From: Arthrobacter agilis
Lineage (GTDB): Bacteria > Actinomycetota > Actinomycetes > Actinomycetales > Micrococcaceae
Assembly: GCF_030816075.1 (NCBI RefSeq)
Contig: NZ_JAUSXO010000001.1
Span: forward strand, 1,922,001 to 1,986,000
Direction of reading: 5' to 3'
Length of the DNA stretch: 64,000 nt
Shown here: piece after piece, positions 5,933 to 44,905 of the stretch
How the letters are laid out: each line of letters starts with the position of its first letter
How positions within the stretch are numbered: position 1 is the stretch's first letter
Translations under genes and position numbers: made by a program
Notes under the pieces: generated by a model
What the model was told of the DNA's origin: nothing
Database searches by the model: none
Seen by the model: only the letters and a program-made list of their open reading frames with translations

Positions 5933-6002
5933 GGGGATGTAGCTCAATGGCAGAGCTTGAACTTGGCGCCAAGTGATGCAGGTTCGATTCCTGCCGTTCC
6001 TA
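5933..6002 (+). tRNA. tRNA-like element with aberrant anticodon arm
   Basis: The acceptor GGGGATG can pair with CGTTCCT (three G-U pairs), the D-arm GCTC/GAGC is perfect, and the T-arm GCAGG-TTCGATT-CCTGC is canonical. The region where the anticodon arm should be is a 14-base palindrome (ACTTGGCGCCAAGT) that folds as 5 bp with a 4-base loop, so no 7-base anticodon loop forms. An alternative perfect partner for GGGGAT is ATCCCC at 6007-6012, followed by ACCA. It may be a degenerate phage tRNA or a tRNA mimic. Confidence 0.4.
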
Positions 6003-6016
6003 CTCAATCCCCACCA

Positions 6017-19546: not shown

Positions 19547-20658
19547 TGTTCCAGTTCGCGATCTTCGACAGGAACTACCAGTGGCGGGCGCCGCTGGGGA
19601 GCGTGACCTCGCTGAAGGCCACGATCCGGCACAACGCGATCAGCGAGGCTACGTTTTCGATTCCGGCGAACCACAAGCGGGCCGGCATGCTGATCGAGCC
19701 GGGCACACGGCTGCGAATTCGGTACCGGGGCGAGCACCTCATCTCCGGGCCCGTGCGCCTGGCCAGTGGGAGCAGCGAGCCTCCGAGGACGCTTGAGTTC
19801 AGCGTCCAGTCGGACTTCCGTCTGTTGTCGAACTTCCTCGGCTGGCCAGCGCCCATGAAGGCGATCACCCAGCAGGGCGACGACGGCGCGTACTGGACAA
19901 TGCGAGACAACGCCGAGTCCGTGGTGAAGGCCGCGGCACGGCAGAACATCCTTCACCGGTCCGAATACCCACTGACGGTCGCCCCGGACCAGTCCCGAGG
20001 CGGCTTGGTGGACGTGTCCCTGCGGATGCACCCTCTGTTCGACCGGCTGTTTCCCGCGGTCGACGCCGCCGGGATCGGGGTGTCCGTGGAGATGATCCCC
20101 GGCGGGCTGCTGTTGGACTGCTACGTGCCGAAGGTGCGGGTCACGAAGCTGACTGAGCAGTCGAGGGTGGTCAGGAAGTGGCAGTTCTCCCGGGCCGCAC
20201 CGGAAGCTACCCGCGGCGTAATCGGCGCGCAGGGATCCGGGGACCTCCGCGAGTTCATCCCCTTCGCCTCCGCCGCCCGCGAGGCTGAATGGGGCGACGT
20301 CATCGAGGTCTTCCAAGACGCCCGGGACACGGCTGACTCGGTCACCCACGCGATGCGCGGGCAGGAAGCACTGAACGAGACAGCGCCCGTAGCAACGCTG
20401 ACCGTGGACCTGGCGGAGTCAAACAACTTCCGGATCTTCGGGCCGAAGGGCGTGAAGCCGGGAGACATCGTCACCGCCGTCGTGGGCCCCGGCATCGAGG
20501 TCACCGACGTCGTGCGGGAAGTCAGCCTCGACTGGTCACGATCGAACGGCCTGTCCCTTTCAGCGGTCATCGGGCCGAAGGACGACCCCATGGAGCAACT
20601 CATGAAAGCCATCACGACCCTCGCCAGAGGCGTCACCGATCTGAGAGTAGGCACGTAA
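19546..20658 (+). CDS. Tail tip protein, Gp37-like (tail hub)
   Basis: 370 residues. Segments such as ISEATFSIPANHKRAGMLIE, GTRLRIRYRGEHLISGPVRL and PKGVKPGDIVTAVVGPGIEV fit the ReqiPepy6 Gp37-like family of tail hub proteins. One base is shared with each neighbour. It is probably the structural base for receptor-binding parts. Confidence 0.75.
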   Translation: MFQFAIFDRNYQWRAPLGSVTSLKATIRHNAISEATFSIPANHKRAGMLIEPGTRLRIRYRGEHLISGPVRLASGSSEPPRTLEFSVQSDFRLLSNFLGWPAPMKAITQQGDDGAYWTMRDNAESVVKAAARQNILHRSEYPLTVAPDQSRGGLVDVSLRMHPLFDRLFPAVDAAGIGVSVEMIPGGLLLDCYVPKVRVTKLTEQSRVVRKWQFSRAAPEATRGVIGAQGSGDLREFIPFASAAREAEWGDVIEVFQDARDTADSVTHAMRGQEALNETAPVATLTVDLAESNNFRIFGPKGVKPGDIVTAVVGPGIEVTDVVREVSLDWSRSNGLSLSAVIGPKDDPMEQLMKAITTLARGVTDLRVGT

Positions 20659-25679: not shown

Positions 25680-25714
25680 GGCCCCCACCCTTTACGGGGT
25701 GGGGGCCTTCTCTT
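25680..25714. terminator. Bidirectional terminator between tail fibre and acyltransferase
   Basis: 11-bp perfect stem GGCCCCCACCC (25680-25690) with GGGTGGGGGCC (25697-25707), followed by TTCTCTT. It sits between two convergent genes, and its right part lies inside the last codons of the acyltransferase. Confidence 0.85.
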
Positions 25715-26666
25715 CGTTTGTCTGTGTCCGCCGCTTCTGGCCTGATTCTGGGAGGGCGAACAGCCAGCTCGTTACCGGGCGTCGTGATAGGAATACGCCA
25801 ACGTACCCGGCGCCTACGGCTGTGAGTAGTAGGGCCGGGGCGGTGATTTGCCACCACGTCACGCCAAGGCGCCCCAAGAGCGCGGAGGCCGTCATGATGA
25901 CGAGGAAATGGGTTACGTAGAAGACCAGTGACCCTGCCCCTATGCACTGCAGGAAGATGGGCTGGATACGGAGGGCTAGCCGGTACATGACGAGGAAGCC
26001 CGCGATGGGGACGACTACGAAGATCGGGGAGAAGCTGACCGCCACTCCTGCGACGGACAGGGCAGCCCCCGCGCCGCCGATCAGAATGGACACTAGGAGG
26101 ACCCATGGGTTCTTCGCGGCGGCGTCGAACTTGGTGCGGTTGTTGGCGATGATCTGCCCGAGGAAGAAGAACCCGATGAGGTAGGTGAATCGTTCGGCGT
26201 TGGTCAGCGGGCCGACGAAGGCCCAGTCAACGGCGAAGGATGACAGCCACCCTAGTAGTCCGATCAAGGGGTGGAACCTGGATGGCACGAGTAGGGCGAT
26301 GAGGTAGTAGACGAAGAGGATCGCCAGGTACCAGAGGTAGGTGGGCGGGTCGTAGAGGATGAGCGCATAGTCCGTCAGGTCCAGCCCGCCGCCGTAGAGC
26401 CCGACCGCTGAAACGACGATCACGGACCACAGCAGATAGGGCCAGAGCACTTTGCCGGCTTTCCCTGACAGGAACTCGGCGGGCGACTTCGCGAGCGAGC
26501 GAGGCAGCAGCATGCCGGAGAGGATCATGAGCGCTGGCATGCGGAACGGGTCTAGAAAGTCATCGAGGGAGAGTAGGGCGCGGGGAACGTCTGAGATTGT
26601 GGCCGCTTGCCCGATGCCGTGGTGGTAGACAACGAGGAGGATGGCTAACCCGCGCAGGGCGTCCAT
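25692..26666 (-). CDS. Acyltransferase 3 family membrane protein (OafA/OatA type)
   Basis: At least 324 residues with about ten membrane segments. The family signature near the start is MDALRGLAILLVVYHHGIGQ (R-x-x-A-x-x-x-V-x-x-x-H), followed by FRMPALMILSGMLLPRSLAK. Such proteins O-acetylate cell-surface or secreted glycans. The frame is open to 26909, but that extension overlaps the next gene; ATG 26666 lacks a clear ribosome site, so the start is uncertain. At the prophage edge and on the opposite strand it looks like a lysogenic-conversion gene. Confidence 0.8.
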   Translation of the reverse strand: MDALRGLAILLVVYHHGIGQAATISDVPRALLSLDDFLDPFRMPALMILSGMLLPRSLAKSPAEFLSGKAGKVLWPYLLWSVIVVSAVGLYGGGLDLTDYALILYDPPTYLWYLAILFVYYLIALLVPSRFHPLIGLLGWLSSFAVDWAFVGPLTNAERFTYLIGFFFLGQIIANNRTKFDAAAKNPWVLLVSILIGGAGAALSVAGVAVSFSPIFVVVPIAGFLVMYRLALRIQPIFLQCIGAGSLVFYVTHFLVIMTASALLGRLGVTWWQITAPALLLTAVGAGYVGVFLSRRPVTSWLFALPESGQKRRTQTNEEKAPTP

Positions 26667-26778
26667 CCACTGTTCGTGTTCTTTGCGTGGTTTAGCGGCG
26701 GCTGACTCGTGTGCTGTTGAGATAAGGCCCCAGCCCCTTGCCTGATGTCGTGCCTGCGGGCATCGTGCCCGGTGTTGC

Positions 26779-26973
26779 TTAGAGCGCTTCGGCTTGCGCG
26801 TCTGCGTCTTGTTCCTGGCATCCCAGCGAGCAGTAGAAGTAGCTTCCTTCTGGTCGGATGGGGGCGCCAGCTTCACCGCAGCGCCGGCACACGTCTGGTT
26901 GTTCACCAACCCGGCTCCACCATGCGCGGATGTGGTCGATCGGCGCGAGCTTCCCCATCAGCATGCGTGTCAT
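26779..26973 (-). CDS. Small zinc-binding protein
   Basis: 64 residues with CRRCGEAG and FYCSLGC, a four-Cys zinc knuckle, and an N-terminal helix MGKLAPIDHIRAWWSRVG. Starts at 26973, 26964 or 26958 are all possible (three ATGs close together). It is upstream of and probably co-transcribed with the acyltransferase. Function unknown. Confidence 0.55.
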   Translation of the reverse strand: MTRMLMGKLAPIDHIRAWWSRVGEQPDVCRRCGEAGAPIRPEGSYFYCSLGCQEQDADAQAEAL

Positions 26974-30829: not shown

Positions 30830-31694
30830 TCACTGGCCCAGGATCACCCGGGCAGCGTCTATCTCCCGGTCCGGCACCGTGGTGGGCGCCTCGAGGTGCA
30901 CGGCCCCGGACGGGAGGATGCCCGCCCCGCCGTACCGCTCCATGACGCGCCACTGGGCGGCGACGTCCTCGCCGGCGTGCCCGGGCGGGGAGCCTCTCCC
31001 AGAAGTCGAAGCCTCCGCACTCCACGAGGGCCTTCCGGTCGAACAGGACGCAGCCGCCCACCCAGGCGACGCGGTACAGCCTCCAGTCGCCGGGTGGGAT
31101 GGCGAGGTCCGCGGCGGCGTGGGCCAGGTTCGCGGCGTTGTGCAGCGGCCAGCGCGCGAAGCCCTCGGTGTCCGGGCGGATCCGCTCCGGCAGCACCTCG
31201 TTCCCGGGCCACAGCGCGAGCCCGGTGCGTTCGTGGGGCCGGCGGTCGCCGAGATAGGACAGCCCCTGGACCGCGGACCCGACGAATCCGCAGCCGGCCG
31301 TCCGCAGCGCCCGGACCATGCGGTCCAGCGTGCCGGGCTCGAGCCAGACGTCGTTGTCGAGGAAGAGGACGAAGGGCGCACGCGCCAGTCCCAGGAGGTA
31401 GTGCCGGTGCTCGGCCAGTCCCCTGCGGGGCAGGTGCCGTTCGAGCCGGACCGACCGCCCCTGGGCCTCGAGGACCCGCACCATCGCCCGGACCGCGGGC
31501 TGGATCCAGGACGCGGCCTCGCCGTCCGTCTGGTCGCTCACGATCACGCGGAAGGGCACGCCCTCCTGCGCGGCGAGGCCCGCGAGTGTCACGGCGAGTT
31601 CCGCCGGGCGCCCGAAGGAGGGGATCAGGACGTCGACGGCGGGCTCGTCCGCCGGCGCGTCCGATGCCCACTCGCCCGACCAGCGCGGCGTCAC
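30830..31694 (-). pseudogene. Glycosyltransferase family 2, interrupted by a +1 frameshift
   Basis: A GT-A fold transferase of about 287 residues. DVLIPSFGRPAELAVTLAGL, VIVSDQTDG and APFVLFLDNDVWLEPGTLDR (DxD-like DND) are in the first frame. After GFDFWERL the reading moves to a second frame that continues GHAGEDVAAQWRVMERYGGA to ILGQ. The shift lies in the CCCC run at 30987-30990 (plus-strand GGGG); removing one base restores one protein. GTG start overlaps the hldE stop (GTGA). It probably adds a sugar to an envelope glycan. Confidence 0.8.
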
Positions 31695-33251
31695 GGCGCG
31701 TCGTCCCTCAGTGGTGCGGACCGGATCCTGCGGACGACGGCCGCCGTGGAGCGTTCCGGGACGTAGTCGAGGATGCTGACGCGTCCGCCGCAGGCCTCGA
31801 CGGCCGGCGCCTCCTCGAGCATCTGCGCGGTGTAGTCGCCGCCCTTGGCGTACACGTCGGGCCGGAGCAGTTCGATCAGCGGCACGAGGGTGTCCGTGGT
31901 GAAGACGGTGACGTAGTCGACACAGCTCAGGGACGCGATGATGCCCGCGCGGTCCGCGATGGGGTTGATGGGCCGGTCGGGGCCCTTGAGCCTGCGCACC
32001 CCGTCGTCGTCGTTCAGCGCGACGACGAGGACGTCGCCGAGCTGCTTGGCCTGGTTGAGGGAGCGGGTGTGCCCCCGGTGCAGGACGTCGAAGCACCCGT
32101 TCGTCAGGACGATGCGCTTGCCGGCCGCGCGGTCCTCCGCCACCCTCCGCAGGAGCTCCTCGATGGTCAGAGCGGTGTCCGCGACCTGCTGCAGGTGGCC
32201 GGTGAGGTCAGCCGTCGTGCACACGGAGGTGCCCGGGCGGTGGACGACGACGTCGGCGGCGGCCTGCGCCAGATCCAGGCTCGTGGTGAGTGGCAGGCCC
32301 GCGGCCCGCGCGGCGGTGAGGCTCGCGACGAAGGTGTCCCCCGCACCGGAGGCCTGCTTCTCGGTGGCGGGCCGGGCCCAGGTGCGGTGCTCCTCGCCGT
32401 CCTGCCCGAGCAGCACCGTGCCGTCCCGGTCCAGGGTGACCACGACGGCGGCGGCGTTCGTCGATGCGAGGAGATCGGCCCTCCGCGCCGGTGACGGTCG
32501 CGGCCCGGTCCGAGCGCGGGTCGAGGCGCACGGCGAGGACCTGCGCGGCCTCCTGCGCATTGGGCGTGACGATGTCCGGGCCGAGCGCTGCCCAGGCGGC
32601 GGTGTCGTGGGCGTCGACGACGACGAGGGTGCCCGGATCGATGCTCGAGGCATGCCCGAGCGCCGCGCGGACCTCCTCGCCGAGCGCGCCCGAGCCGTAG
32701 TCGCAGACGACGACGGCGTCGGCGCCCGCGACGGCGGCGGGGATCGTGGCGGCGAGGTCGGTGAGCGCCGACGACGGCAGGTCGCCGTGCGTGTCGTCGA
32801 GGCGGAGCATGACCTGGTCACCGCCGAGGATGCGGTACTTCGTGGTGGTGCCCACCCGGGGGTCCTGCAGGAGATGGGTGGTGTCGACGCCGGCGTCCTC
32901 GAGGATGCCGCGCAGGCGCTGCCCGGCGTCGTCGGTGCCGATCAGGCCGCACATGCGCACGTCGGCGCCGAGGGCGGCGAGGTTCATCGCCGTGTTCGCC
33001 GCCCCGCCGGCGGCGTAGTCGCGCCGCGTGATGTCCACGACCGGCGCCGGCGCCTCCCGGCAGAAGCGCTCGATGGTGCCGCTCCACCAGCCGTCCAGCA
33101 TGGCGTCGCCGATCACGGTGATGCTCGGCGCGCGGTCGGCGATGGCCGCGGGGACCCAGGCGGCGAGGCCCCGGACCTCGGAGAGGTCCTCCCCGGCGTC
33201 CTGTGCCGCGGGTGCGATGCCCCCGGGCAGGTTCTGCAGCGCGTCGTCCAT
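31691..33251 (-). pseudogene. hldE: Bifunctional heptose-7-phosphate kinase/heptose-1-phosphate adenylyltransferase, copy 1, frameshifted
   Basis: HldE phosphorylates D-glycero-D-manno-heptose 7-phosphate and later transfers AMP to heptose 1-phosphate. The N-terminal PfkB-type kinase (AAGGAANTAMNLAALGADVR) and the C-terminal cytidylyltransferase domain (LTNGCFDVLHRGHTRSLNQA) are both present. Between them, near 32485-32490, the frame shifts by one base just before GAGDTF. Removing one G or C restores one protein of about 520 residues. The start overlaps the aldehyde dehydrogenase stop (ATGA) and the stop overlaps the GT2 start (GTGA). A second, intact copy lies at 36863. Confidence 0.85.
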
Positions 33252-34663
33252 CAGGCGCCCTCCTGCGGAGGCGCGCTGATGTGCACGACCTTCACGAGGG
33301 CGAACTCGTCGAGCAGTTCGGGCCCGTAGCCGAACCCAGCCCCGCTGATGCCGCGGGGCTGGGCCGATCCGCCGGGCGCACCGCCGAAGACGGCGTTGAC
33401 CTTGACCGTGCCGACCGCGAGCCCGGCGATGGCCTGCTGCGCGTGGGCGATGCCGCCCGTCAGCACGGACGCCGCGAGCCCGTACGGACCGGCCGCGGCG
33501 AGGCGCAGGGCGTCGTCGAAGCTGTCCACGACGGTCACCGGCGCCACCGGGCCGAAGGTCTCCTCGGTCATGACCGTCATGGCATCGGTGCAGTCCGCGA
33601 GCACCGTGGCCGGGTAGTGGGCGCCCGGGCCGCCCGGCACCTGCCCGCCCTCGAGGCACCGCGCGCCGAGGCTGATCGCCTCCGTCACCTGCGCGTCCAC
33701 GATGTCCCGCATGCGCCGGTCGACGAGCGGCGCGAAGTCACCGCCCGTGTTGCGGCTGTGGGCCTCGGCCGCGAGGGCGGCCAGGAAGGGTTCGGCGATG
33801 GCGCGGTGCACGTAGATGCGCTCCACGGACGTGCAGATCTGCCCGCTGTTGGCGAAGGCGCCGAGGGCCGCCTGGCCCGCGGCCCACACGGGGTCGACGT
33901 CGGCGTCGACGATCAGGGGATCGTTGCCGCCGTTCTCCCGGATGACGTGCGCGCCGGTGAGGGACGCCGCCCGGGCGATCCGCGCCCCGGTGGCACTCGA
34001 GCCGACGTGGGCGAAGACGTCCACCCCCGTCTCCATCGTGATCATCTGCCCCACTCCGGCGCCGCCGGTCAGGGTGGTGAGGACGCCGTCGGGGAAGGCC
34101 GGCTGCAGCAGGCGCCCGAGCAGTTCGCCCACGTGGGGGCACCGCTCGCTCGGCTTGTGGATGACGGTGTTGCCCGTCACCAGGGCGGCACCGATGAGCC
34201 CGGCGGCCACGGCCACGGGGTCGTTCCACGGCGTCAGGAGCGCGGCGACCCCGCGCGGCTCGGCGACCGTGTAGTCGGTGGCGGTCACCGCTCCGCGCAG
34301 GCTGAGCCCGCGGTGCACGGGGCCGAGTTCCGCGTACTGCTCGAGCGTGGCGATCCCGGCCTCGACGCCGCCGAGTGCGTCCCCGAGGGGCTTGCCGGTC
34401 TCGCGCGTGTTCAGTTCCGCCAGCTCACGGGCACCCTCCCGCAGTGCCGCGGCGGCCCGCCGCAGGGCGGCACCCCGGTCGGCCGGGCTGGTGGCGGCCC
34501 ATTCGGGCTGCACGGTCCGCGCCAGGCCGACGGCGAGCGCCACCTGGTCCCGGTTGGCGGACGGCAGCGTCCCCACCTCGCTCCCGTCGCGGGGATCGAG
34601 GATGGTGAGGGACTCGTCGTCCTGCACATCAAGCAGGGTGTGTGCCTGGGAGTTGATGGACAT
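33251..34663 (-). CDS. Aldehyde dehydrogenase family protein
   Basis: 470 residues of NAD(P)-dependent aldehyde dehydrogenase. Cofactor and active-site motifs are LTPWNDPVAVAAGLIGAALV (TPWN-like), GSSATGARIARAA (GSxxxG), RENGGNDPLIV (general base Glu in an unusual ENGG in place of ELGG) and NSGQICTSVERIYV (nucleophile Cys). The substrate is unknown. It is the first gene of a minus-strand operon with hldE and GT2, which suggests sugar or aldehyde metabolism linked to the glycan. Confidence 0.88.
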   Translation of the reverse strand: MSINSQAHTLLDVQDDESLTILDPRDGSEVGTLPSANRDQVALAVGLARTVQPEWAATSPADRGAALRRAAAALREGARELAELNTRETGKPLGDALGGVEAGIATLEQYAELGPVHRGLSLRGAVTATDYTVAEPRGVAALLTPWNDPVAVAAGLIGAALVTGNTVIHKPSERCPHVGELLGRLLQPAFPDGVLTTLTGGAGVGQMITMETGVDVFAHVGSSATGARIARAASLTGAHVIRENGGNDPLIVDADVDPVWAAGQAALGAFANSGQICTSVERIYVHRAIAEPFLAALAAEAHSRNTGGDFAPLVDRRMRDIVDAQVTEAISLGARCLEGGQVPGGPGAHYPATVLADCTDAMTVMTEETFGPVAPVTVVDSFDDALRLAAAGPYGLAASVLTGGIAHAQQAIAGLAVGTVKVNAVFGGAPGGSAQPRGISGAGFGYGPELLDEFALVKVVHISAPPQEGA

Positions 34664-34936
34664 TGCGCTCCTCGATGTCGTGTACCGCCGCGGCGTGGTC
34701 CCGCGGCACGGCTAGTGGTCCCGTACCCGCCTCCCGTGCTTTCACACAGGGCGCCCGCCGATTTCTACGCCACACCCGCGCGGTCATCAGCACGCTTAGC
34801 ATATGGTGGCACGGGAAGGGGCAGCGGGTCTCCTGCTCCCGGCGAAGGCATTGACAGCATGGCGCAGGCCTGCCGCTGGGGGCACCGGGGGCCTGCTGCT
34901 CGAGGCACCGCGATCAGCGACAGGAACGGGGAGAAC
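34664..34936. other. Divergent intergenic region
   Basis: The 273 bases between the divergent aldehyde dehydrogenase and GT9 genes should hold both promoters. I see no convincing operator or ORF. AGGAACGGGGAGAAC precedes the GT9 start. Confidence 0.4.
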
Positions 34937-36095
34937 GTGACACAGCAGGCGGACACGACAGCGGATTTCGGCGGTCGCCAGGACGAGGCGAGGTCGGTGG
35001 GGCCGGTGCTCGCGCCGTTCGAGGACGTCCGACGGATCGCCGTCCTGCGCGGTGGCGGCCTCGGCGACCTCATGTTCGCGCTGCCCGCCATCGCCGCTCT
35101 CGAGGACCGCTATCCCGGGGCGGAGATCACCCTCCTCGGGATGCCCGGGCACGCCGCGCTGCTCGAGGGCAGGCCCGGCCCGGTGTCCGCGGTGCTGGAG
35201 CTGCCCGTCTCCCCCGGCGTCCGACCCGGCGAGGAGGATCCGGAGGCGGTGGAGCGGTTCTTCGCCGCCGTGCGCGGGTCCTTCGACCTCGCCGTGCAGC
35301 TGCATGGGGGCGGACGCAACTCCAACCCGTTCCTGCTGCGGCTGGAGGCCCGCCACACCATCGGCACGCGCACGCCCGACGCCGTGGGACTGGAACGGAC
35401 CATCCCGTACGTCTACTACCAGCACGAGGTGTTCCGCGCCCTCGAGGTGGTGGGGCTGGCCGGGGCGGTGCCGCGGGACCTCGAGCCGGCGGGTCGAGGT
35501 GCTGCCCGCGGAGGCGGAGCGTGCCGCGCAGCTGACCGGCCCGGGACCCGTGATCGCACTGCACCCCGGCGCCACCGACCCGCGCCGGCGATGGCCGTCG
35601 TCGTCGTTCGCGGAGATCGCGGTGCGCGCCGCGGCGGACGGCTGCGAGGTGGTGGTGGTCGGCGACGCCTCCGACGCACCGACGGCCGAGGAGATCGTCC
35701 GCCTGGCACGCGCGAAACACCCGTCGGCGGACGTGCGGTCGCTCGCGGGCCGGCTGACCCTCGGCGAACTGACGGGCGTGCTGGCGCGCAGCGCGGTGAT
35801 GGTGGGCAACGACAGCGGCCCGCGCCATCTGGCGCAGGCCGTCGGCACGCCGACCGTCGGTGTCTACTGGATCGGCAACGTCATCAACGCCGGGGCGATG
35901 GGACGCAGCCTCCACCGCGTGCACTTCTCCTGGGTGGCGCACTGCCCGGTGTGCGGCGTGGACGTCACCCAGGTCGGGTGGACGGCCCAACGCTGCGAGC
36001 ACGACGACTCGTTCGTTGCGACCGTCCAGCCCGACGCCGTCTACGCGGACGTGGCGGAACTCAGGGCCACGAGCCTTCTTCTGCGTGGGCGATGA
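34937..36095 (+). pseudogene. Glycosyltransferase family 9 (heptosyltransferase-like), frameshifted
   Basis: About 385 residues of the ADP-heptose:LPS heptosyltransferase family. The first frame holds RIAVLRGGGLGDLMFALPAI, the family start with the GDL motif. The second frame holds VIALHPGATDPRRRWPSSSF and VGNDSGPRHLAQAVGTPTVG, the NDP-sugar-binding C-terminal half, and WVAHCPVCGVDV. The shift is at about 35486-35493 (GAGCCGGCGGGTCGAG); dropping one G gives continuous DLEPRVEVLPAEAER. GTG start. Its 3' end overlaps the convergent SDR by 35 bases. Confidence 0.82.
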
Positions 36096-36798
36096 CCATC
36101 TCGCGGATCTCGCAGCTCTTGGGCTGCGACAGCGCGAAGAGGATCGCCTCGGCCACGCGCTCGGGGTCGTTGAGGCGTGAATCGTCCTGCGGCTTGTACT
36201 GCTCGTCGCGGTCGTCGAAGAACCGGGTCTTCATGCCGCCGGGGATGATCGTGGTGACGCCGATCTGCCCGGCGGTCTCCGCGGCGAGGGCCTGTGAGAA
36301 GCCCATCACCCCGAACTTGGAGGCGCAGTAGGCCGTCGCGTCGCCCACGGCCTTGATGCCCAGCGTGGAGGCGATGGTGACCACGCGGCCGTGCGTCTGC
36401 TTCAGGTAGGGCAGGGCGGCGCGGGCGGTGGACGCGGTGCCCATCAGGTTGACGCCGATCACCTTCTCCCACTGGTCCGCGGGCACCGTGTCGAGCGCCC
36501 CGCACCGGTCGATGCCGGCTGCCGTGACGACGGCGTCGAGGCCGTCCATCGTCTCGGCCGCCTCCCGCACCGCCGCCTCCACGGCCTCGCGGTCCGCGAC
36601 GTCGACCTCGAAGGCCTTGACGCCGGTCACGCGGCTGATGTCGCGGTCGAGCACCACGGGGGTACCCCCTGCGGCGAGCACGCCCTGCACGATGGCCGCG
36701 CCGAGGCCGGAGCCTCCACCGGTCACCAGGACGCGTCCCGGGTTGAAGCCGTTGCCTGCCGGTGTCGCTGCCGTGCCTGCTGTCGTGTTCTCGGTCAT
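36061..36798 (-). CDS. Short-chain dehydrogenase/reductase
   Basis: 245-residue classical SDR. NAD(P) motif VTGGGSGLGAAIVQGV, VTAAGID (NAG-like), Ser in ASTLGI and catalytic Y-x-x-x-K in ATAYCASKFGVMGFS. It begins with a low-complexity Thr/Ala tract. ATG 36798 has a strong ribosome site (AAAGGAAC). Size and motifs are those of a classical SDR, not of the extended epimerase HldD, so it cannot simply be assigned as the heptose epimerase. It stands downstream of hldE copy 2. Confidence 0.85.
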   Translation of the reverse strand: MTENTTAGTAATPAGNGFNPGRVLVTGGGSGLGAAIVQGVLAAGGTPVVLDRDISRVTGVKAFEVDVADREAVEAAVREAAETMDGLDAVVTAAGIDRCGALDTVPADQWEKVIGVNLMGTASTARAALPYLKQTHGRVVTIASTLGIKAVGDATAYCASKFGVMGFSQALAAETAGQIGVTTIIPGGMKTRFFDDRDEQYKPQDDSRLNDPERVAEAILFALSQPKSCEIREMVIAHAEEGSWP

Positions 36799-36862
36799 GC
36801 TGTTCCTTTCGTTGCGTTGCTCCCGGCCTGCTGGATCGGACCGGGTGCGGTTCTGCAGCGCG

Positions 36863-38227
36863 TCAGCCGACTCGGGCGAGCGCGGCTGCAAGTCTGGTGG
36901 TGGAGCGGGCCGGGATGTAGGGGACGGTGACCGTCCTGCCGCCCCAGCTGCTCACGAGCGCCGCCTCGGGCAGGTCCTCGGCCGCGTAGTCGCCGCCCTT
37001 GACCCAGATGTCCGGCTGGAGGCGGGAGATGGCGTTCTCCGGCGTGGACTCCCCGAAGACGAGCACGGCGTCCACGCACTCCAGGGCGGAGAGCAGTTCG
37101 GCGCGGTCCTCCTGCTTGATGATGGGACGGCTCTCGCCCTTCAGCCCTCGCACGGACTCGTCCGAGTTGAGGAGGACGATCAGGCAGTCGCCGAGCTGCC
37201 GTGCCGCCGCGAGGGTGCGGGCATGGCCCGCGTGGAGGAGGTCGAAGCACCCGCCGGTCGCCACGACGGTGCCGCCCGCCTCCCGCGTGCGGCGCGCGAC
37301 GTCGAGGGCATCGAGGCCGTCGACGGGCAGCTGCCGCGGCGTGTCCTGCCGGCGGCCCATGGCGCCCACTCCCCCGGAGCCGAGGAAGCGCGCGGCGGCC
37401 TCCGTGGCCCGCTGGGCCGCGGTGTCGATCGGCTCCCCCGAGGCGAGGCCGACGGCGAGCGCTGAGGCGAACCGGTCGCCCGCCCCGCAGGGGTCCGCGG
37501 CGGTGACGCGGGGTGCGGGGACCACCTGCGGCAGGAGGCCCGGCGCGGCGACGAGGGCCCCGTGTTCGCCCATCGTGACGAGCACCGCGCGGCTGCGCCA
37601 GGTGGCCAGGAGGACGTCCGCGGCAGCCGCGGCGGCGCGCGTGCCGGAGCCCTGGACGTCGGCGAAGCGGAGCGCCTCCCCGAGGTTGGGGGTCACGGCG
37701 GCGACGCCGGGGACAGGCTGCGCCCCGGAGGGGTGTGGGTCCCACACCACCGGGGTCGACGCGGCGAGGGCTTCGAGGCGGGCGCGCAGCGCGGGATCGG
37801 CCAGCAGCCCCCGCCCGTAGTCCGCCGCGATGACCGCGTCGGCCCCGTCGAGCGCCGCCAGCATGGCGTCGGTGCATCCGGGGACGGGCGGTGTGGCGCA
37901 TCCCTCGTCGAAGCGCACCACGGGCTGCCCGGACGCCCGGACCCGGGTCTTGACGGGTGTCGGGGCGCCGGAGGGGCCGGCGACGACGGCGATGCCCTCG
38001 AGCTCGGCACGGAGCAGCCCTGCGGCGTCGTCCTCCCCGAGGACCGTCACGAGGACGGCCTCGTGGCCGTCGGCCTCCAGCATGCGGGCCACGAGTCCTG
38101 CACCGCCGGCACGGCGCCGGACGGCGTCGACGTCGACGACGGGCACGGGCGCGTCGGGCGACAGGCGCCCGGCATCACCCGAGAGGTCCGTGTCGAGCAG
38201 GACGTCACCGACCACAACGATCCTCAT
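36863..38227 (-). CDS. hldE: Bifunctional heptose-7-phosphate kinase/heptose-1-phosphate adenylyltransferase, copy 2
   Basis: 454 residues. The N-terminal ribokinase-like domain (MRIVVVGDVLLDTDLSGDAG, FDEG, DPCGAGDRFASALAVGL with the catalytic GAGD Asp) is fused to a nucleotidyltransferase domain (VVATGGCFDLLHAGHARTLA, later VKGGDYAAEDLPE). It makes heptose 1,7-bisphosphate, and after GmhB acts forms ADP-heptose. The start overlaps gmhA (ATGA). The intact frame contrasts with copy 1, and the two copies share only family-level similarity. Confidence 0.88.
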   Translation of the reverse strand: MRIVVVGDVLLDTDLSGDAGRLSPDAPVPVVDVDAVRRRAGGAGLVARMLEADGHEAVLVTVLGEDDAAGLLRAELEGIAVVAGPSGAPTPVKTRVRASGQPVVRFDEGCATPPVPGCTDAMLAALDGADAVIAADYGRGLLADPALRARLEALAASTPVVWDPHPSGAQPVPGVAAVTPNLGEALRFADVQGSGTRAAAAAADVLLATWRSRAVLVTMGEHGALVAAPGLLPQVVPAPRVTAADPCGAGDRFASALAVGLASGEPIDTAAQRATEAAARFLGSGGVGAMGRRQDTPRQLPVDGLDALDVARRTREAGGTVVATGGCFDLLHAGHARTLAAARQLGDCLIVLLNSDESVRGLKGESRPIIKQEDRAELLSALECVDAVLVFGESTPENAISRLQPDIWVKGGDYAAEDLPEAALVSSWGGRTVTVPYIPARSTTRLAAALARVG

Positions 38228-38937
38228 CGCTGCTCCTCCTGGCGGCGGCGGTGCACCTCGGCGTCGAAGGCCCGGCAGATCGCGTGGAGGGCGATCAGGT
38301 GGCCCTCCTGCGCATTGGCGGACTTCGCCTCGATCGCCACGAAGTCGTCGACGCGCTCGGTCAGCGGATTGGGTCCCGCCGCGGTGAGGGCCCACGTGGT
38401 CACGCCGGCCGCCCGGGCCGCGTCCACGGCGTGCAGCAGGTTGGGGCTCCTGCCGCTCGTGCTCAGGAGCAGCAGGATGTCTCCCGGGCGCCCGTGCGCG
38501 GTCACCTGGCGGGCGAACATGCGGTCGAACCCGTAGTCGTTGGAGATCGCCGTGACGGCCGAGCTCTCGGCATGGAGGGAGATCGCCGAGAACGGCTCGC
38601 GTTCGCCGTCGAACCGGCCCACGAGTTCGGCGGTGAGGTGCTGCGCCTCCGCGGCGGAGCCGCCGTTGCCGGCGGCGAGCAGGCGCTGGCCGGCCATCAG
38701 CCGCTCGGCCATCTCCACCCCCCAGCCGGCGAGGGTGCCGACGTTCTGCAGCAGCGACTCGATGGCCGGGCCCACGGAGCGCAGGTGGTCCGTCACGATC
38801 CGGCGGGAGTCCTCCCCGGGAGGGGCCGTGCTGCCCGGCGCGCCGGGGGTGTGCGGGCGTGGACCACGGACGGGTGCCGCGGTATCGACAGGACCGGTGG
38901 TCCTGTCCTCGGATACGTCGGTGATGTGAGTGGTCAC
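38224..38937 (-). CDS. gmhA: Phosphoheptose isomerase (SIS domain)
   Basis: 237 residues. Sedoheptulose 7-phosphate isomerase, the first committed step of heptose synthesis. SIS-domain motifs are LLAAGNGGSAAEAQHLTAEL, LLLLSTSGRSPNLLHAVDAA and QEGHLIALHAICRAFDAEV (closing His/Glu region). The N-terminal 45 residues are a Pro/Gly-rich extension. GTG start with AGGCAGGG upstream. It overlaps the GT4 gene by GTGA and hldE by ATGA. Confidence 0.88.
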   Translation of the reverse strand: MTTHITDVSEDRTTGPVDTAAPVRGPRPHTPGAPGSTAPPGEDSRRIVTDHLRSVGPAIESLLQNVGTLAGWGVEMAERLMAGQRLLAAGNGGSAAEAQHLTAELVGRFDGEREPFSAISLHAESSAVTAISNDYGFDRMFARQVTAHGRPGDILLLLSTSGRSPNLLHAVDAARAAGVTTWALTAAGPNPLTERVDDFVAIEAKSANAQEGHLIALHAICRAFDAEVHRRRQEEQR

Positions 38938-40226
38938 AGTGCCCTGCCTCCCGTGCTCTCGAGTCGACGCGCGGCGCTCCGCCGCGCTGTGGCCGGCTGT
39001 GCGGGCGCTGCCGCATTCAGGGCCGTCTGGTACGCCTTCTCCGTGTCGGCCGCGATCCGGCTCCACGAGTAGCGGGCCTTCACACGGCGGTAGCCGTTGC
39101 CGCCGAGCTCGCCGGCCCAGTCGGGATCCGACACCACCTCGGCGATGGCCGCCGCGATGGCCGCGGGGTCCTGCGGCGGGACGTGGAGGCCGGTCTTGCC
39201 GTGCACCACGGTGTCGACGAGTCCCCCGACGGCGGCGGCGATCACGGGGACGCCGCACGCCATCGCCTCGAGCGGCACGATGCCGAACGGTTCGTACCAG
39301 GGCGCGCAGACCACGGCGTCGGCGCTCCTGAGGACCGCCGGCATCTCCGCGCGGGAGACCTGGCCCCGCAGGACCACGCGGTCGCCGACACCGAGTTCGG
39401 CGGCCAGGGCGGTGAGCCGCTGCGCCTCGGGATCCTCCTCGAGGCTGGCCGAGTTGCCGGCGCCGCCCACGATGACGAGTTCGACGTCGTCGCGTCCCGT
39501 GGTGGCGAGCTCCGCCAGGGCCCGGATGACGAGATCCATGCCCTTGCGTGGCACGAGCCGCCCCACGCTGACGATGCGGTGGGCGCGGCCGCGCGCCTCG
39601 ACGGGTCCCTGCGGGCTGAACAGCTCGAGGTCGACGCCGCAGGGGGCGATGGACACGTGGCTGCCCGGCACGCCCATGGCCTTGAGCTCGAACACCTCGT
39701 CGGAGCAGGTGGCGACGATGCGGTCGGCGCTGCGGCCCACCATCGCCTCGAGCATGAGCCGCTCGGACGGGCTGGTGTCCTCCGAGCCCTGGTGGCGGCG
39801 CTTGACCGTCCCGAGCGCGTGGAAGGTCTGGACGACCTGCACGGGGCGGCCGGCGCTGCGCGACTGGCGGGCGGCGTCGAGTGCTGCGATGCCGGACATC
39901 CAGAAGTGCCCGTGGACGATGTCCGGTGCCTGCTCGCCCCAGTCCTCGACGATGCCCTCGGCGAGCTCGCTCATGTAGGGCAGCAGCATGTCCTTCGGGA
40001 CGCTGCGGACCGGGCCCGCCGTGACGTGCACGACCTCCAGCCGGGGGTGCGTCCGCACCCGGTCGGGCAGTGCGGCGTCGTCGCGGCGGGTGTACACCGT
40101 GACGTCGTGTCCGCGGCGGGCGAGCGCGAGAGACAGTTCCGCCACGTGGACGTTCTGTCCGCCGGCATCGACGCCCCCCAGTGCCGCGAGCGGGCTGGCG
40201 TGCTCGGAGACCATCGATATCCTCAC
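38934..40226 (-). CDS. Glycosyltransferase family 4
   Basis: 430-residue GT-B retaining transferase. Acceptor-side motifs MVSEHASPLAALGGVDAGGQ and NVHVAELSLALARRGHDVTV lie at the N-terminus, and the donor-side EX7E is in APWYEPFGIVPLEAMACGVP. SVGRLVPRKGMDLVIRAL is the usual start of the second Rossmann domain. The organisation resembles glycogen-synthase-like and MshA-type transferases. GTG start with GAAAGGAAAG upstream. It is part of the overlapping heptose operon. Confidence 0.88.
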   Translation of the reverse strand: MRISMVSEHASPLAALGGVDAGGQNVHVAELSLALARRGHDVTVYTRRDDAALPDRVRTHPRLEVVHVTAGPVRSVPKDMLLPYMSELAEGIVEDWGEQAPDIVHGHFWMSGIAALDAARQSRSAGRPVQVVQTFHALGTVKRRHQGSEDTSPSERLMLEAMVGRSADRIVATCSDEVFELKAMGVPGSHVSIAPCGVDLELFSPQGPVEARGRAHRIVSVGRLVPRKGMDLVIRALAELATTGRDDVELVIVGGAGNSASLEEDPEAQRLTALAAELGVGDRVVLRGQVSRAEMPAVLRSADAVVCAPWYEPFGIVPLEAMACGVPVIAAAVGGLVDTVVHGKTGLHVPPQDPAAIAAAIAEVVSDPDWAGELGGNGYRRVKARYSWSRIAADTEKAYQTALNAAAPAQPATARRSAARRLESTGGRAL

Positions 40227-41225
40227 TGCGCTTTCCTTTCTGTCGAGGCCAGGACCCGGTGCCGCAGCGGCGCCCGCTCCAGGACGTCGTCCCAGTCGGC
40301 GAGGAACCGGGCGAGCCCGTACCGTGCCAGTGCCGCTTCCCGTGCCACCAGCCCCCGGGCCCGGGCTTCGTCCGGGTCCTCGAGGAGGCGGGACGCCATC
40401 CGGACGAGGTCGTCGATGCTCGTCGAGATCGCGCCGGCCTCGGGCGGGACGGCCCGGGCGGCCTCCGTCGTCGCGAGCGCCAGCACGGGGGAGCCCCACG
40501 TGCATGGCCTCGAGGAGCGAGAGCCCGAGGGACGTCCACCGCAGGGGATGCACGTAGGCCCGGGAACGCCCGAGCCGGGCGTGCAGCCGCGCCGTGGGGA
40601 GGTCGCCGCCGATCCGCAGCTCCCCGGGACCGAGGTCCAGGGCGTCGGCGAGCCGGTCGGTGCCCATGCCGAAGACCTCCAGCGGGGCGACGCCGGCGAA
40701 CCGCGGCAGCAGGTCCGTCCCCGTGATCCTCCCGCGTCGGACGGGTTCGTTGATGACGGCGGCGAGCTGCTCGAGCTCCCCCGTGTAGAGGTAGCCCGGA
40801 TCGACGATGCCGTGCTCGATCACCGTGGTCCTGGCGACGCCGTTGTCCCAGAAGAGCTCGTTGAAGTGGGTCACGTGCACCACCGGGATGTCCGTCTGCT
40901 CCGCGAGCGGGTGCACCGTGCCGACGATGTCGCGGCGCGGCGTGTTGTGCTCGAGGAAGACGGCCGGCAGGTCGCGTCCGGGGGTGCGGCCGAGGAGGCG
41001 CTCGCACTCGGCGATCTCCTCGACGCGCTGCAGGACGACGGCGTCGATGCCGGCGTCGGCGAGGTCGGAGGGCGCCACCTCGATGACGGAGGCGGGCCAG
41101 TCGCGGCCCGCCCGGCCGAGTCCCCAAGCGCCGCCGTCGGGCGTGGTGGGCAGCACGTAGGTGTGATCACCTCGCACGAAGGCGTCGGTCCACCCTCCGT
41201 GCACATGCCATAACAGGATCCTCAT
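40223..41225 (-). pseudogene. Glycosyltransferase (GT4-like), frameshifted
   Basis: About 333 residues. The first frame begins MRILLWHVHGGWTDAFVRGD and holds HVTHFNELFWDNGVA and YVHPLRWTSLGLSLLEAMHV, the donor-site E-x-x-E region. After a run of five C (plus-strand 40487-40491) the frame changes and continues ALATTEAARAVPPEAGAIST to the stop. Removing one C gives HVGLPVLALAT, the usual family continuation. The ATG overlaps the GT9 stop (ATGA) and the stop overlaps the GT4 start. Confidence 0.82.
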
Positions 41226-42325
41226 CGGTTTCCCCTCGTTGTTCTGCGGCCGTCGGTGCGGCCGATGCTGCGGCGTGAGCCGAGTGACGATACTCCGGAG
41301 CTGAGGCGGAGGACGGCGTCGACGACGTCCTCCGGGGAGACGGTGGACAGGCACGGGTGACCCTGCACGGGGCAGATCCGGGCCCTGCTGAGCGCGCAGG
41401 CGGCGTTCTGGTCGCCGAGCAGCTCGACGGGGACGCGATACGGTGCCCAGCGGATCGCCGGCACCACGGGCGAGAACAGGCAGACCACGGGCGTGCCCAC
41501 GGCGGCCGCGAGATGTGCCGGGCCGGTGTTGCCCGTGATCACCACCGAGGCGCCCGCGAGGACGGAGCCCAGGGCGGCGAGGTCGGTGCGCCCGCCGAGG
41601 TCCAGCGCCTCCGGTCCGGCGACGGTGGAGGTCAGGTCGGTCTCGCCCGGCCCGCCCGTGACCACCACGCGGAAGCCGGCCGCGGTGAGGAGCTCGACGG
41701 CGGCCGCGTGGTGGAGCGGCGGCCAGGCCCGTGCCGGCACGGACGCGCCGGGGTGGACGACGACGTAGGGGCCCTTGCCCACCAGGTCCGAGGCGTCGGT
41801 GAGTCCCGTGACCTGGAGGCGGCCGTCGTCGCCGGGCGGCAGGGCGTAGCCCGCGGCCTCCGCGATGCCGAGCGCGCGTTCCGCCTCGGGCTGGTCCTCG
41901 GGGAAGTCCTCGCCGGGCTTGAGCCGGACGTCGAGGAGGGATCCCGCGTAGTCCACGGAGGCGCCCGCGATCCGGCGGATGCCGGCGAGCCGGAGGAGCA
42001 GGGCCAGCGGCAGGGGTGACTGGTGGAACGAGGTCAGCAGGACCGCCTCGTCGACGCCGAGGCCCGCGACGGCGTCGTGCAGCTCGCGGACGAGCTCCGG
42101 TGTGGGCTCGGGGGCGGGGTCCACGATCCAGGGCGCGGACCACGTGACGACGTCGACGACCCCCGGGAGGAGGCGGGCCGCGGCCGCACCCTGCGGGCCG
42201 CACAGCATGACGACGTCGTTCGGCGAATCGCCGTGGTCGCCGGCCGCGACGGCGCGGACGGCCGGACCCGCGAGCAGGACGTCTCCGGCGCTGTCGAGGC
42301 GGGCGACGAGGACACGCCGCCTCAC
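41222..42325 (-). CDS. Glycosyltransferase family 9 (heptosyltransferase-like)
   Basis: 367 residues. N-terminal VLVARLDSAGDVLLAGPAVR (GD motif of heptosyltransferases) and C-terminal YVVVHPGASVPARAWPPLHH, ITGNTGPAHLAAAVGTPVVC and FSPVVPAIRWAPYRVP. The acceptor is unknown; in Gram-negatives the family extends LPS inner core. GTG start overlaps the gmhB stop (GTGA). CALSRARICPVQGHPC adds a Cys pair seen in many actinobacterial members. Confidence 0.88.
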   Translation of the reverse strand: MRRRVLVARLDSAGDVLLAGPAVRAVAAGDHGDSPNDVVMLCGPQGAAAARLLPGVVDVVTWSAPWIVDPAPEPTPELVRELHDAVAGLGVDEAVLLTSFHQSPLPLALLLRLAGIRRIAGASVDYAGSLLDVRLKPGEDFPEDQPEAERALGIAEAAGYALPPGDDGRLQVTGLTDASDLVGKGPYVVVHPGASVPARAWPPLHHAAAVELLTAAGFRVVVTGGPGETDLTSTVAGPEALDLGGRTDLAALGSVLAGASVVITGNTGPAHLAAAVGTPVVCLFSPVVPAIRWAPYRVPVELLGDQNAACALSRARICPVQGHPCLSTVSPEDVVDAVLRLSSGVSSLGSRRSIGRTDGRRTTRGNR

Positions 42326-42870
42326 GGGGTGCCCGCCCAGAGGGACTCGACGGCCTCGGCGAGGTCCCGGGCGACGGCCGGGGCATCCCGGATCTCCTCG
42401 TCCAGGGTGATGTCGGTCGGCACCAGCACGCCGCGGGCCCCGGCGGCCGCGGCGGCGCCCATGTCCGCTCCGATGTCCCCGATCACGGCGACCTCCGCCG
42501 GGTCGAGGCCGAGCCGCTCGCTGGCGGAGAGGACCATCCCGGGGCCGGGCTTGCGGCACCGGCAGCCGTCGTCCGCGCCGTGGGGGCAGACCTCCCACAC
42601 CGCGAACGGACCGAGCAGGTCCTCGACCCGGGCGTTGACGGCATCGACCTGTTCGCGTGTGACGTAGCCCCGTGCGATGCCCGACTGGTTGGTGACCACG
42701 CCCACCGGGATGCCGCGCGAGCGCAGCCCGTCGAGGACCTCGCGGGCGCCCGGCATGGGCCGCACCAGCGAGGGGTCGCCGTTGTACGGGACGTCCACGA
42801 CGATGGTCCCGTCGCGGTCGAACAGGACCGCCTGGGGGGCTGTCCGCGGGAGTCCGGCCGAAGTATGCAT
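42322..42870 (-). CDS. gmhB: D-glycero-D-manno-heptose 1,7-bisphosphate phosphatase (HAD)
   Basis: 182 residues. HAD-IIIA phosphatase: the nucleophile motif VLFDRDGTIV, then VVTNQSGIARG, and a zinc-binding loop CPHGADDGCRCRKPGPGM with three Cys and one His, diagnostic of GmhB. It removes the 7-phosphate between the two HldE reactions. First gene of the minus-strand operon, transcribed away from the GT9 at 42978. Confidence 0.88.
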   Translation of the reverse strand: MHTSAGLPRTAPQAVLFDRDGTIVVDVPYNGDPSLVRPMPGAREVLDGLRSRGIPVGVVTNQSGIARGYVTREQVDAVNARVEDLLGPFAVWEVCPHGADDGCRCRKPGPGMVLSASERLGLDPAEVAVIGDIGADMGAAAAAGARGVLVPTDITLDEEIRDAPAVARDLAEAVESLWAGTP

Positions 42871-42977
42871 ACTGGCTTAGTTCCCGAGAAGAAGCAGTAC
42901 TAAACACCTGACGCCGAACTTCTTCTCCCGGCGTCGAGCGGCGGCGGCAGCGGGAGGCCGTCCCAACCTCTGGCAGG

Positions 42978-43994
42978 ATGATTCGCATGACTTCCGAGGG
43001 CACCACCGCCACGGGCATCCGGCCCGCCTCCGCTCCCGTCCAGATCCCGGCCTCGACGCCCGCCCCGGACGGACGCCCCGAGATCCTGGCCCTGCGCGCG
43101 CTGAAGCTCGGGGACCTCCTCGTGGCGGTGCCCGCCCTCAAAGGGCTGCGCCGTGCGTTCCCCGAGCACCGCATCCTCTACGCGGCGCAGGAATGGCTGC
43201 GGCCCATCGTCGGCCTCACCGAGGCCATCGACGACCTGCTGCCCACGCACGGACTGGATGATCCCCTGCCCATCGAGCACGGGCGGATCGACCTGGCCGT
43301 GAACCTGCACGGCAGCGGGGGCGAGAGCAGGGGCCGCCTCGAGGAGATCGGCGCCAAGCGGCGCATGGGCCACCGCTCCCCCGGCTGGGACGGGCCCGAA
43401 TGGCGCGACGGCATCCTCGAACGGGAGCGCTGGGCGTCGCTCGTCTCCTGGCACGGCGTCCCGGCGGACCCGCTCGACTGCCGCCTGCGGGTGCCGGACG
43501 GCGGGAGCCCGGCACCTGACGCCGTGGTCGTCCATGTGGGGGCGGCGTACGGCAGCCGCCTCTGGCCGGTGGAGCGGTTCGCGACGGTGGCACACACCCT
43601 GGCTGCCGCCGGGCACCAGGTGCTGTTCACCGGTAGCGCGAAGGAACGGCCCCGGGCGCTCGCCGTCGCCGACGCCGCCGGCCTGCCGGCGGAGACCGTG
43701 GCGGCCGGGCACCTTCCGCTGGACCGGTTCGCCGCCCTGATCGCCGGCGCCTCCCTCGTCATCTCCGCCGACACCGGGGCCGCGCACCTGGCGTCGGCGT
43801 ACGCCCGGCCGTCCGTGGTGCTGTTCGGACCGGCCCCCGCGTCCGAGTGGGGACCGCCACCCGGGCCGCACACCGTGCTGACCGACGAATCGCTGCGCCT
43901 GGGTGAGACGTTCTCACCGACGCCGGATCCCGCGCTGATGGCGGTGACCGTGGAGCAGGTGTTGGCGGCGGCGGCCGACCACGGCATCTCCTAG
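42978..43994 (+). CDS. Glycosyltransferase family 9
   Basis: 338 residues. EILALRALKLGDLLVAVPAL (family start), GAAYGSRLWPVERFATVAHT and ISADTGAAHLASAYARPSVV match heptosyltransferases. The N-terminal 30 residues are Pro/Ala-rich. ATG 42987 is an equally good start; the ribosome site (GGCAGGATG) favours it slightly. Divergent from gmhB across about 107 bases that probably hold both promoters. Confidence 0.87.
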   Translation: MIRMTSEGTTATGIRPASAPVQIPASTPAPDGRPEILALRALKLGDLLVAVPALKGLRRAFPEHRILYAAQEWLRPIVGLTEAIDDLLPTHGLDDPLPIEHGRIDLAVNLHGSGGESRGRLEEIGAKRRMGHRSPGWDGPEWRDGILERERWASLVSWHGVPADPLDCRLRVPDGGSPAPDAVVVHVGAAYGSRLWPVERFATVAHTLAAAGHQVLFTGSAKERPRALAVADAAGLPAETVAAGHLPLDRFAALIAGASLVISADTGAAHLASAYARPSVVLFGPAPASEWGPPPGPHTVLTDESLRLGETFSPTPDPALMAVTVEQVLAAAADHGIS

Positions 43995-44035: not shown

Positions 44036-44905
44036 TCAGGCGATGCCGGTGCGCGCGGGACGCTGACCCTGCGCGGCGGGGGCGTCGAGGAGCCGTTTCT
44101 GCAGTTTGACCAGGATGCGCGCGAGGGTCCGGGAGACCTGCATCTGCGACATCCCGAGCTCGTCCCCGATCCCCTGCTGGGTCTGCTCCATGAAGTAGCG
44201 GCGGTAGAGCAGCTCCTTCTCACCGGCGTCGAGTTCGTTGACGGCGCCGCGGAGCGAGATCATGTCATCGCTGCGCTCCATCCCGTTGGAATCGCTCGCC
44301 AGCGTGTCGGCCCAGGTGCGTCCCTCGGTCGGTGCGTCGAGGGAGTCGGGACGCAGGCTCGAGTGGGAGGCCTGTGCTTCGAGGATCTTGTTCTCCGGCC
44401 AGCCGAGCTCCAGCCCCAGCTCCCGTGCCGTGGCCTCGCGCCCGAGCCGCTGAGCCATCGCGGGAGCGGTGCGGGCGATCTCCGTGCGCAGATCCTGCAC
44501 GGCGCGTGGCGGTCGGACCACCCAGCACGAGTCCCGCAGATAGCGCTTGATCTCCCCGGTGATGGTGGGTACCGCGAACGAGGCGAACGGGATGCCCCGG
44601 CCCGGGTTGAAGCGCTGCACCGCCTTGATGAGTCCGAGATAGGCGACCTGCCGGATGTCCGAGGCCTCGGGCCCCGAGAACGCGAACGAGCGGGCCACCG
44701 ATTCGGCGATGTCCATGTGCCGCAGGGCGATGTCATCCTGCAGGGCCGCCTTGAGGGGACGCTCGGGGTACGCGCCGTCCGTTTCCGGGGCGTCGGCCTC
44801 CGTGTCCTCGCCGGGAGCCTGCGTGCCCTCGCCGGGACAGGCGGGGGTGACCGCGCGGACGGCAGGGGGCTCCGCGGCGGAATCGGGGTCGGCGGTACCG
44901 GGCAT
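44036..44905 (-). CDS. RNA polymerase sigma factor, SigB/SigF family
   Basis: 289 residues. Regions 2 to 4 of sigma-70 group 3 are present: AFSGPEASDIRQVAYLGLIK with FNPGRGIPFASFAVPTITGE (region 2), RELGLELGWPENKILEAQAS (region 3) and IGDELGMSQMQVSRTLARIL (region 4 HTH). The family controls the general stress response. An acidic Pro/Glu-rich N-terminus of about 55 residues precedes region 2. ATG 44905 has CGGAG upstream; GTG 44935 is an alternative. No anti-sigma gene is adjacent. Confidence 0.88.
   Translation of the reverse strand: MPGTADPDSAAEPPAVRAVTPACPGEGTQAPGEDTEADAPETDGAYPERPLKAALQDDIALRHMDIAESVARSFAFSGPEASDIRQVAYLGLIKAVQRFNPGRGIPFASFAVPTITGEIKRYLRDSCWVVRPPRAVQDLRTEIARTAPAMAQRLGREATARELGLELGWPENKILEAQASHSSLRPDSLDAPTEGRTWADTLASDSNGMERSDDMISLRGAVNELDAGEKELLYRRYFMEQTQQGIGDELGMSQMQVSRTLARILVKLQKRLLDAPAAQGQRPARTGIA

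Follow-up and report, generated by a model that had tools for sequence, protein, structure and literature searches.

Heptoses are textbook chemistry of Gram-negative bacteria, where they are building blocks of the outer membrane. The window analysed here, a stretch of 64,000 nucleotides from the genome of Arthrobacter agilis (3.86 Mb in a single contig), carries between positions 30830 and 43994 a cluster of putative heptose and glycosyltransferase (GT) genes, for which gene identities, shared residues, descent, conservation, homology to the Streptomyces coelicolor cwg operon and promoter co-occurrence were tested by sequence. As reported in Table 1, a first minus-strand set runs from gmhB through GT9-B, GT4-B, GT4-A, gmhA and hldE-B to a short-chain dehydrogenase/reductase (SDR) gene (42870 down to 36061), a second one from an aldehyde dehydrogenase gene through hldE-A to a GT2 gene (34663 down to 30830), with GT9-A and GT9-C encoded on the plus strand. 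In both sets adjacent genes overlap by a few bases, save for gaps of 8 bases between gmhB and GT9-B and of 64 bases between hldE-B and the SDR gene. HldE-B is 95% identical to its counterpart in Arthrobacter sp. B0490 and 93% to that of A. ruber. An earlier note on this DNA had listed GmhA, GmhB, two HldE, three GT9, two GT4 and one GT2 genes, all of which were confirmed; the SDR, the aldehyde dehydrogenase, a SigB/F-type sigma factor gene and four frame breaks are added here.

Table 1. Features of the heptose cluster and of the prophage-like region in the window.
Feature	Position	Strand	Basis
gmhB, D,D-heptose-1,7-bisphosphate 7-phosphatase (HAD-IIIA)	42322..42870	-	NCBIfam; E. coli GmhB alignment
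GT9-B, heptosyltransferase-family glycosyltransferase	41222..42313	-	PF01075, 81.4 bits
GT4-B glycosyltransferase, frame break near 40480	40223..41225	-	in frame in relative L028
GT4-A, MshA/Tll1590-like glycosyltransferase	38934..40226	-	family and PDB matches
gmhA, sedoheptulose 7-phosphate isomerase (SIS fold)	38224..38937	-	NCBIfam; E. coli GmhA alignment
hldE-B, bifunctional heptose kinase/nucleotidyltransferase, intact; lineage common to Streptomyces; YIPARSTT	36863..38230	-	
SDR, 3' of hldE-B	36061..36798	-	
GT9-A, WaaF-like heptosyltransferase-family protein, CxxC-x13-CxH finger, frame break near 35492	34937..36095	+	
Aldehyde dehydrogenase, opens second set	33251..34663	-	PF00171, 354 bits
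hldE-A, second bifunctional kinase/nucleotidyltransferase, separate descent; two frames, break near 32470; YVPERSTA	31691..33251	-	
GT2 glycosyltransferase, weakly MftF-like, frame break near 30975-31000	30830..31694	-	
GT9-C, heptosyltransferase-family, divergent from gmhB	42978..43994	+	best NCBIfam heptosyltransferase I, 85 bits (cut-off 185)
SigB/SigF/SigG-family sigma factor, possible regulator	44036..44905	-	TIGR02980, 196 bits (cut-off 234)
SigB/SigF-type promoter-like site, GTTTAG-N14-GGGAAC	42880..42905	-	10-35 bases upstream of gmhB start
Prophage-like region, terminase large subunit	7887-9395		
Prophage-like region, portal	9403-10734		
Prophage-like region, tape measure	15486-18599		
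Prophage-like region, minor tail protein	19546-20655		

The top NCBIfam family was phosphoheptose isomerase for GmhA (155.9 bits, equivalog cut-off 276) and D,D-heptose-1,7-bisphosphate phosphatase for GmhB (117.1 bits, cut-off 178). The two HldEs, each with a kinase and a nucleotidyltransferase domain, scored 177.8 and 179.3 bits with TIGR02199 (cut-off 181.5), and HldE-B 154.8 bits with TIGR02198 (cut-off 345). All heptose enzymes are under the curated cut-offs; nevertheless, a heptose family was the top match for every biosynthetic enzyme. Alignments to the E. coli proteins revealed the GAGD and T-K-R...Q...R-D signature shared by the kinase with HldE; in GmhB, the DRDGT and NQSGIARG motifs and the C/H/C-x-C cysteine/histidine set; and in GmhA a shared glutamate and histidine, which we take to be catalytic. 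The glycine-aspartate of GT9 was found in all three GT9 proteins aligned with E. coli WaaC and WaaF, using for GT9-A the sequence of the relative L028. In the whole genome, the best of 15 matches to an HldD-type epimerase reached 89.5 bits (cut-off 274.6) and LpxC gave no match at E ≤ 1; the HldD and LpxC of a lipopolysaccharide (LPS) core pathway were therefore not recognised, in agreement with the earlier note, which had seen neither an HldD-type epimerase nor a lipid A gene.

The enzymes needed for ADP-D,D-heptose, namely GmhA, kinase, GmhB and nucleotidyltransferase, are all present with their shared residues, if below the cut-offs, and the D,D-heptose route proposed before, one without a recognised HldD, is supported. 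GmhA would convert sedoheptulose 7-phosphate into D,D-heptose 7-phosphate, the HldE kinase domain would form the 1,7-bisphosphate, GmhB would take off the 7-phosphate, and the HldE nucleotidyltransferase domain would yield a nucleoside diphosphate (NDP)-D,D-heptose, that is ADP-heptose and possibly also CDP- or UDP-heptose. The D,D form is probably used unepimerised, because no HldD-type epimerase scored above its cut-off. With the Gram-negative pathway (GmhA, HldE, GmhB, HldD; WaaC/WaaF) the cluster shares all four steps as far as NDP-D,D-heptose, as well as the fold of GT9 and its glycine-aspartate; Arthrobacter differs from it in lacking an HldD above the cut-off and any LpxC match.

The cluster is not a peculiarity of this strain. 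Among 120 genomes of the family, 34 (own included) had an HldE nucleotidyltransferase above 120 bits, and 27 of these had two on the same contig, 3.6–11.4 kb apart; a looser tally at E ≤ 0.001 gives 99/120, but takes in much weaker nucleotidyltransferase matches. GT9 was found in 36/120, 33 of them within the HldE set; the other three are G104, whose HldE match is in two parts, G105, an assembly of 350 contigs, and the marginal G114. Conversely, G006 has HldE without GT9. Class-wide, HldE matches at E ≤ 1e-30 occurred in 94 of 394 genomes and 46 of 138 genera. We further compared 79 named loci found with HldE-B, so that the counts describe what accompanies HldE-B rather than its frequency, and some stretches are short and end before a gene could be reached. 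GmhA, GmhB, HldE and at least one GT9 occurred together in 18/19 Micrococcaceae, 27/27 Microbacteriaceae and 25/33 others. By contrast, GT9-A (18/19, 26/27 and 0/33) and HldE-A (15/19, 22/27 and 0/33, at a lowered threshold, a stricter one giving 8/27 Microbacteriaceae) were confined within this set to the first two families. Since the gene set recurs, mostly in the same order, in many genera, its arrangement is beyond chance, and the idea that it is special to this strain found no support. An eightieth locus, L069, was set aside: this 9.5 kb contig, deposited as Vibrio cholerae strain 35D, has an Arthrobacter-type cluster (HldE-B pieces 85–90% identical) and is most likely a contamination of that assembly.

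A maximum-likelihood tree of 44 kinase domains was built leaving out the broken HldE-A of the window, a PfkB kinase of the same genome without a clean frame (L121) and the short L124. HldE-B formed a group of 27 rows including that of the window (support 98/92), and the HldE-A of relatives a separate group of 12 rows (100/97) that joins E. coli HldE (100/93), a placement limited by long branches. The two HldEs do not, therefore, appear to be a recent duplication. The heptose kinases as a whole, E. coli HldE included, were separated (97/93) from the four further PfkB kinases that this genome contributed to the tree. A placing of the kinases with non-heptose PfkB sugar kinases, which the earlier note had named as refuting its view, was thus not seen.

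The choice of nucleotide is less certain. An NTP-promiscuous heptose nucleotidyltransferase, STTR5, carries the motif (F/L)xxGRSTT, whose arginine at position 5 is reported to permit CTP and UTP (PMC11573728). Both HldEs of the window have this arginine, where E. coli HldE has a cysteine, and differ from the motif at positions 1 and 4. Across the loci it occurs in 55/79 HldE-B (8 without the anchor motif and 6 without ST, with E. coli as control) and in 12/37 HldE-A, the other 25 having histidine. In view of this arginine, the donor need not be confined to ADP-heptose.

As for regulation, the site upstream of gmhB differs by one change in each box from the SigB consensus GTTTAA-N12-14-GGG(A/T)A(A/T), and its GGGAAC is known from a published SigB/F-dependent promoter (PMC8346170), which makes it a candidate SigB/SigF-type promoter. 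The pattern, chosen after the site had been seen, matched once in the window against a mean of 0.02 in shuffles, and nine times genome-wide against one match of a reversed control pattern. Eight of the nine are two sequences repeated at four places about 3.6 kb apart, presumably ribosomal RNA operons. Of 70 loci in which the gmhB start could be read, 21 have a SigB/F-type gene no more than 4 kb away, and 17 of these carry the motif; of the 49 that lack such a gene, none does. The main operon of Arthrobacter, from gmhB to the SDR gene, would be read from this promoter, probably recognised by the adjoining sigma factor.

An indication of function came from Streptomyces. The cwg operon of S. coelicolor (SCO6179-6190), controlled by sigma-E/CseBC, is a vancomycin-induced sigma-E target in which SCO6186 is annotated as a putative phosphoheptose isomerase and SCO6187 as a bifunctional synthase/transferase (PMC6767563, PMC5839063, as far as available); in these parts of the cwg literature heptose is named only in the annotation of SCO6186, and our literature search found no heptose glycan of Arthrobacter or of cwg. 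Using the 29-base cwg promoter as published, we scanned 392 genomes from the genus to which G242 belongs, taken as Streptomyces, and obtained nine matches, one exact (G740, 8.63 Mb contig) and eight with 1–3 mismatches, of which four regions were read. Behind the exact match (L134) lie, in order, an epimerase, a carbamoyltransferase, GT2, GmhB, GT9-B, GT4-B, GT4-A, GmhA, HldE and GT9-C, 46–67% identical to the queries; L135 (1 mismatch) has the full same order, with some genes in two pieces. The order GmhB-GT9-GT4-GT4-GmhA-HldE on one strand is also that of the window, so that, as judged from sequence and gene order, the core in Arthrobacter and the cwg operon in the genome with the exact match are homologous.

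The two loci differ at their ends. In Streptomyces the epimerase/dehydratase, carbamoyltransferase and GT2 precede the core, GT9-C follows HldE and no SDR match was found, whereas in Arthrobacter GT9-C is divergent at the other end and an SDR, a second HldE, an aldehyde dehydrogenase and GT9-A are present. No NDP-sugar epimerase was identified among the cluster genes, and the best genome match to the carbamoyltransferase family PF16861 had 15.3 bits (cut-off 27). These front genes belong to the NAD-dependent epimerase/dehydratase (L074, L077) and NodU-type carbamoyltransferase (L088) families. NodU-type genes adjoin the heptose genes in 18/31 representative loci, mostly upstream of gmhB and all outside Micrococcaceae and Microbacteriaceae, for instance L088:5252-6907 (one member identified by Pfam) and L134; by analogy with the LPS of Pseudomonas, where carbamoylated heptose occurs, this hints at a carbamoylated heptose glycan in those loci. 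The promoters also differ in type, SigB/F in Arthrobacter against sigma-E for cwg. A sigma-E promoter was sought between gmhB and GT9-C in the window and not found, with seven pattern matches elsewhere in 29–46 kb; among 22 relatives, L028 (GT9-C direction) and L032 (gmhB direction) had one match each, without conservation. Before the first gene of nine non-Micrococcales loci, there was none in Streptomyces L077, L081, L093 and L104, and single matches in L074 and L094 were taken as chance. Since these motif scans failed, the link to cwg is based on the promoter search and the genes behind it.

On these grounds we consider it likely that the cluster represents, in the form found in Micrococcaceae, a widespread actinobacterial locus for an NDP-heptose-derived envelope glycan, homologous to cwg. 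An envelope role is supported by the homology of the core to the Streptomyces 'cell wall glycan' operon (PMC6767563). On an acceptor in the cytoplasm, the three GT9 enzymes would place heptose and those of the GT4 and GT2 families other sugars, and the resulting glycan would end up in the envelope; enzyme activities, product, acceptor, export and the pairing of sigma factor and promoter are here what we infer. The D,D-heptose route, the lack of LpxC and the envelope role of the earlier interpretation were upheld, but the idea of a wholly undescribed product was not supported. Newly noted are the SigB/SigF-type promoter, the separately descended HldEs, the arginine in both and the Cys/His finger of GT9-A.

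Several observations weigh against this reading. The heptose enzymes score below the curated cut-offs, and the 'cell wall glycan' of cwg is itself only predicted (PMC6767563, PMC5839063, in the parts available). Behind the promoter match of L136 (1 mismatch) we found GT2, a GmhB piece and GT4 pieces, but not GmhA or HldE, and behind that of L137 (3 mismatches) no query matched, so that the cwg promoter sequence does not always precede heptose genes. All 17 motif-positive loci are from Arthrobacter or Paenarthrobacter, and the association of motif and sigma gene tracks phylogeny; the positives being closely related, the co-occurrence is suggestive and not independent evidence. Autoregulation of the sigma gene was also considered, but the motif was not found upstream of it in 14/14 aligned. 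The HldE-A arginine is not kept outside Arthrobacter, all 12 cases being from this genus. Among the cluster genes scanned, there was none recognisable as encoding a flippase, polymerase or ligase, and GT2, HldE-A, GT9-A and GT4-B each show one frame change in the window, being in frame in L028.

That no polymerase, flippase or ligase gene was recognised in the cluster would suit a product in which heptose is placed onto a diffusible small molecule or glycolipid, of septacidin or hygromycin type, with GT4-A loading a sugar-phosphate or inositol acceptor. Indeed, GT4-A reached 244.5 bits with the MshA family, under its cut-off of 462.5, and its closest PDB entries are Tll1590 (234 bits), presumably a sucrose-phosphate-synthase-type enzyme, and 3c48/3c4q (168 bits), which we take to be MshA. 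Moreover, heptose use in septacidin and hygromycin B is cited in PMC10948575; actinobacterial NDP-heptose synthetases, those of these two pathways and tridomain enzymes, likewise make heptose from sedoheptulose 7-phosphate, whereas Arthrobacter has a separate GmhA and a didomain HldE inside a conserved glycosyltransferase cluster. We regard this explanation as unlikely, because the locus occurs in many families with kept order, unlike a typical species-specific product cluster, and a cell-envelope stress sigma factor controls cwg.

The four frame breaks could be real mutations of a cluster decaying in this strain, a rather improbable explanation. The broken genes retain 82–95% identity to L028 and L030, and comparison with 77 kb of the L028 contig shows another three candidate splits elsewhere in the window, near 48.6, 56.0 and 57.7 kb, although two of them involve a weakly matching piece (63–64%). 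Since candidate breaks also occur outside the cluster, residual assembly indels are likelier than decay.

It is very unlikely that GT9-A modifies exported proteins as TibC does. The finger of GT9-A, three cysteines and one histidine (CxxC-x13-CxH) invariant in orthologues such as L028:12145-13227, recalls the TibC/Aah autotransporter heptosyltransferases, which share the GT9 fold and a cysteine-containing finger, but GT9-A is structurally closer to WaaF than to TibC and its pieces in the window gave no match to TIGR04414 (TibC-type). Finally, that the enzymes produce another C7 or a non-heptose sugar, as their sub-threshold scores could allow, is most improbable given the heptose family as best NCBIfam match of each enzyme, the kinase tree and the shared residues.

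Outside the cluster, positions 1–28000 of the window are prophage-like, with lower G+C content and without synteny to the relative B0490. This region includes a tRNA-like gene (5933-6003, anticodon unclear) and, near its right end, genes for a GDSL-type protein (23837-25654) and an acyltransferase-3 family protein (25695-26909); an RNA family scan of the window found two tRNAs only.

More tentatively, monoderm actinobacteria may share a stress-induced NDP-heptose envelope glycan, which would be the cwg product, wired in different lineages to different stress sigma factors; the form of Micrococcaceae and Microbacteriaceae would be diversified by a heptosyltransferase with a metal finger and by a second, separately descended HldE, and might use CDP- or UDP-heptose. 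If this is true, an overlooked envelope component would be present in about one in four of the class genomes sampled, and the vancomycin-induced cwg product would gain a testable chemical identity. It would also give a physiological role to NDP-heptose enzymes, whose functions, a few established roles apart, have been called elusive (PMC11573728), and agonists of ALPK1 could derive from Gram-positive actinobacteria as well.

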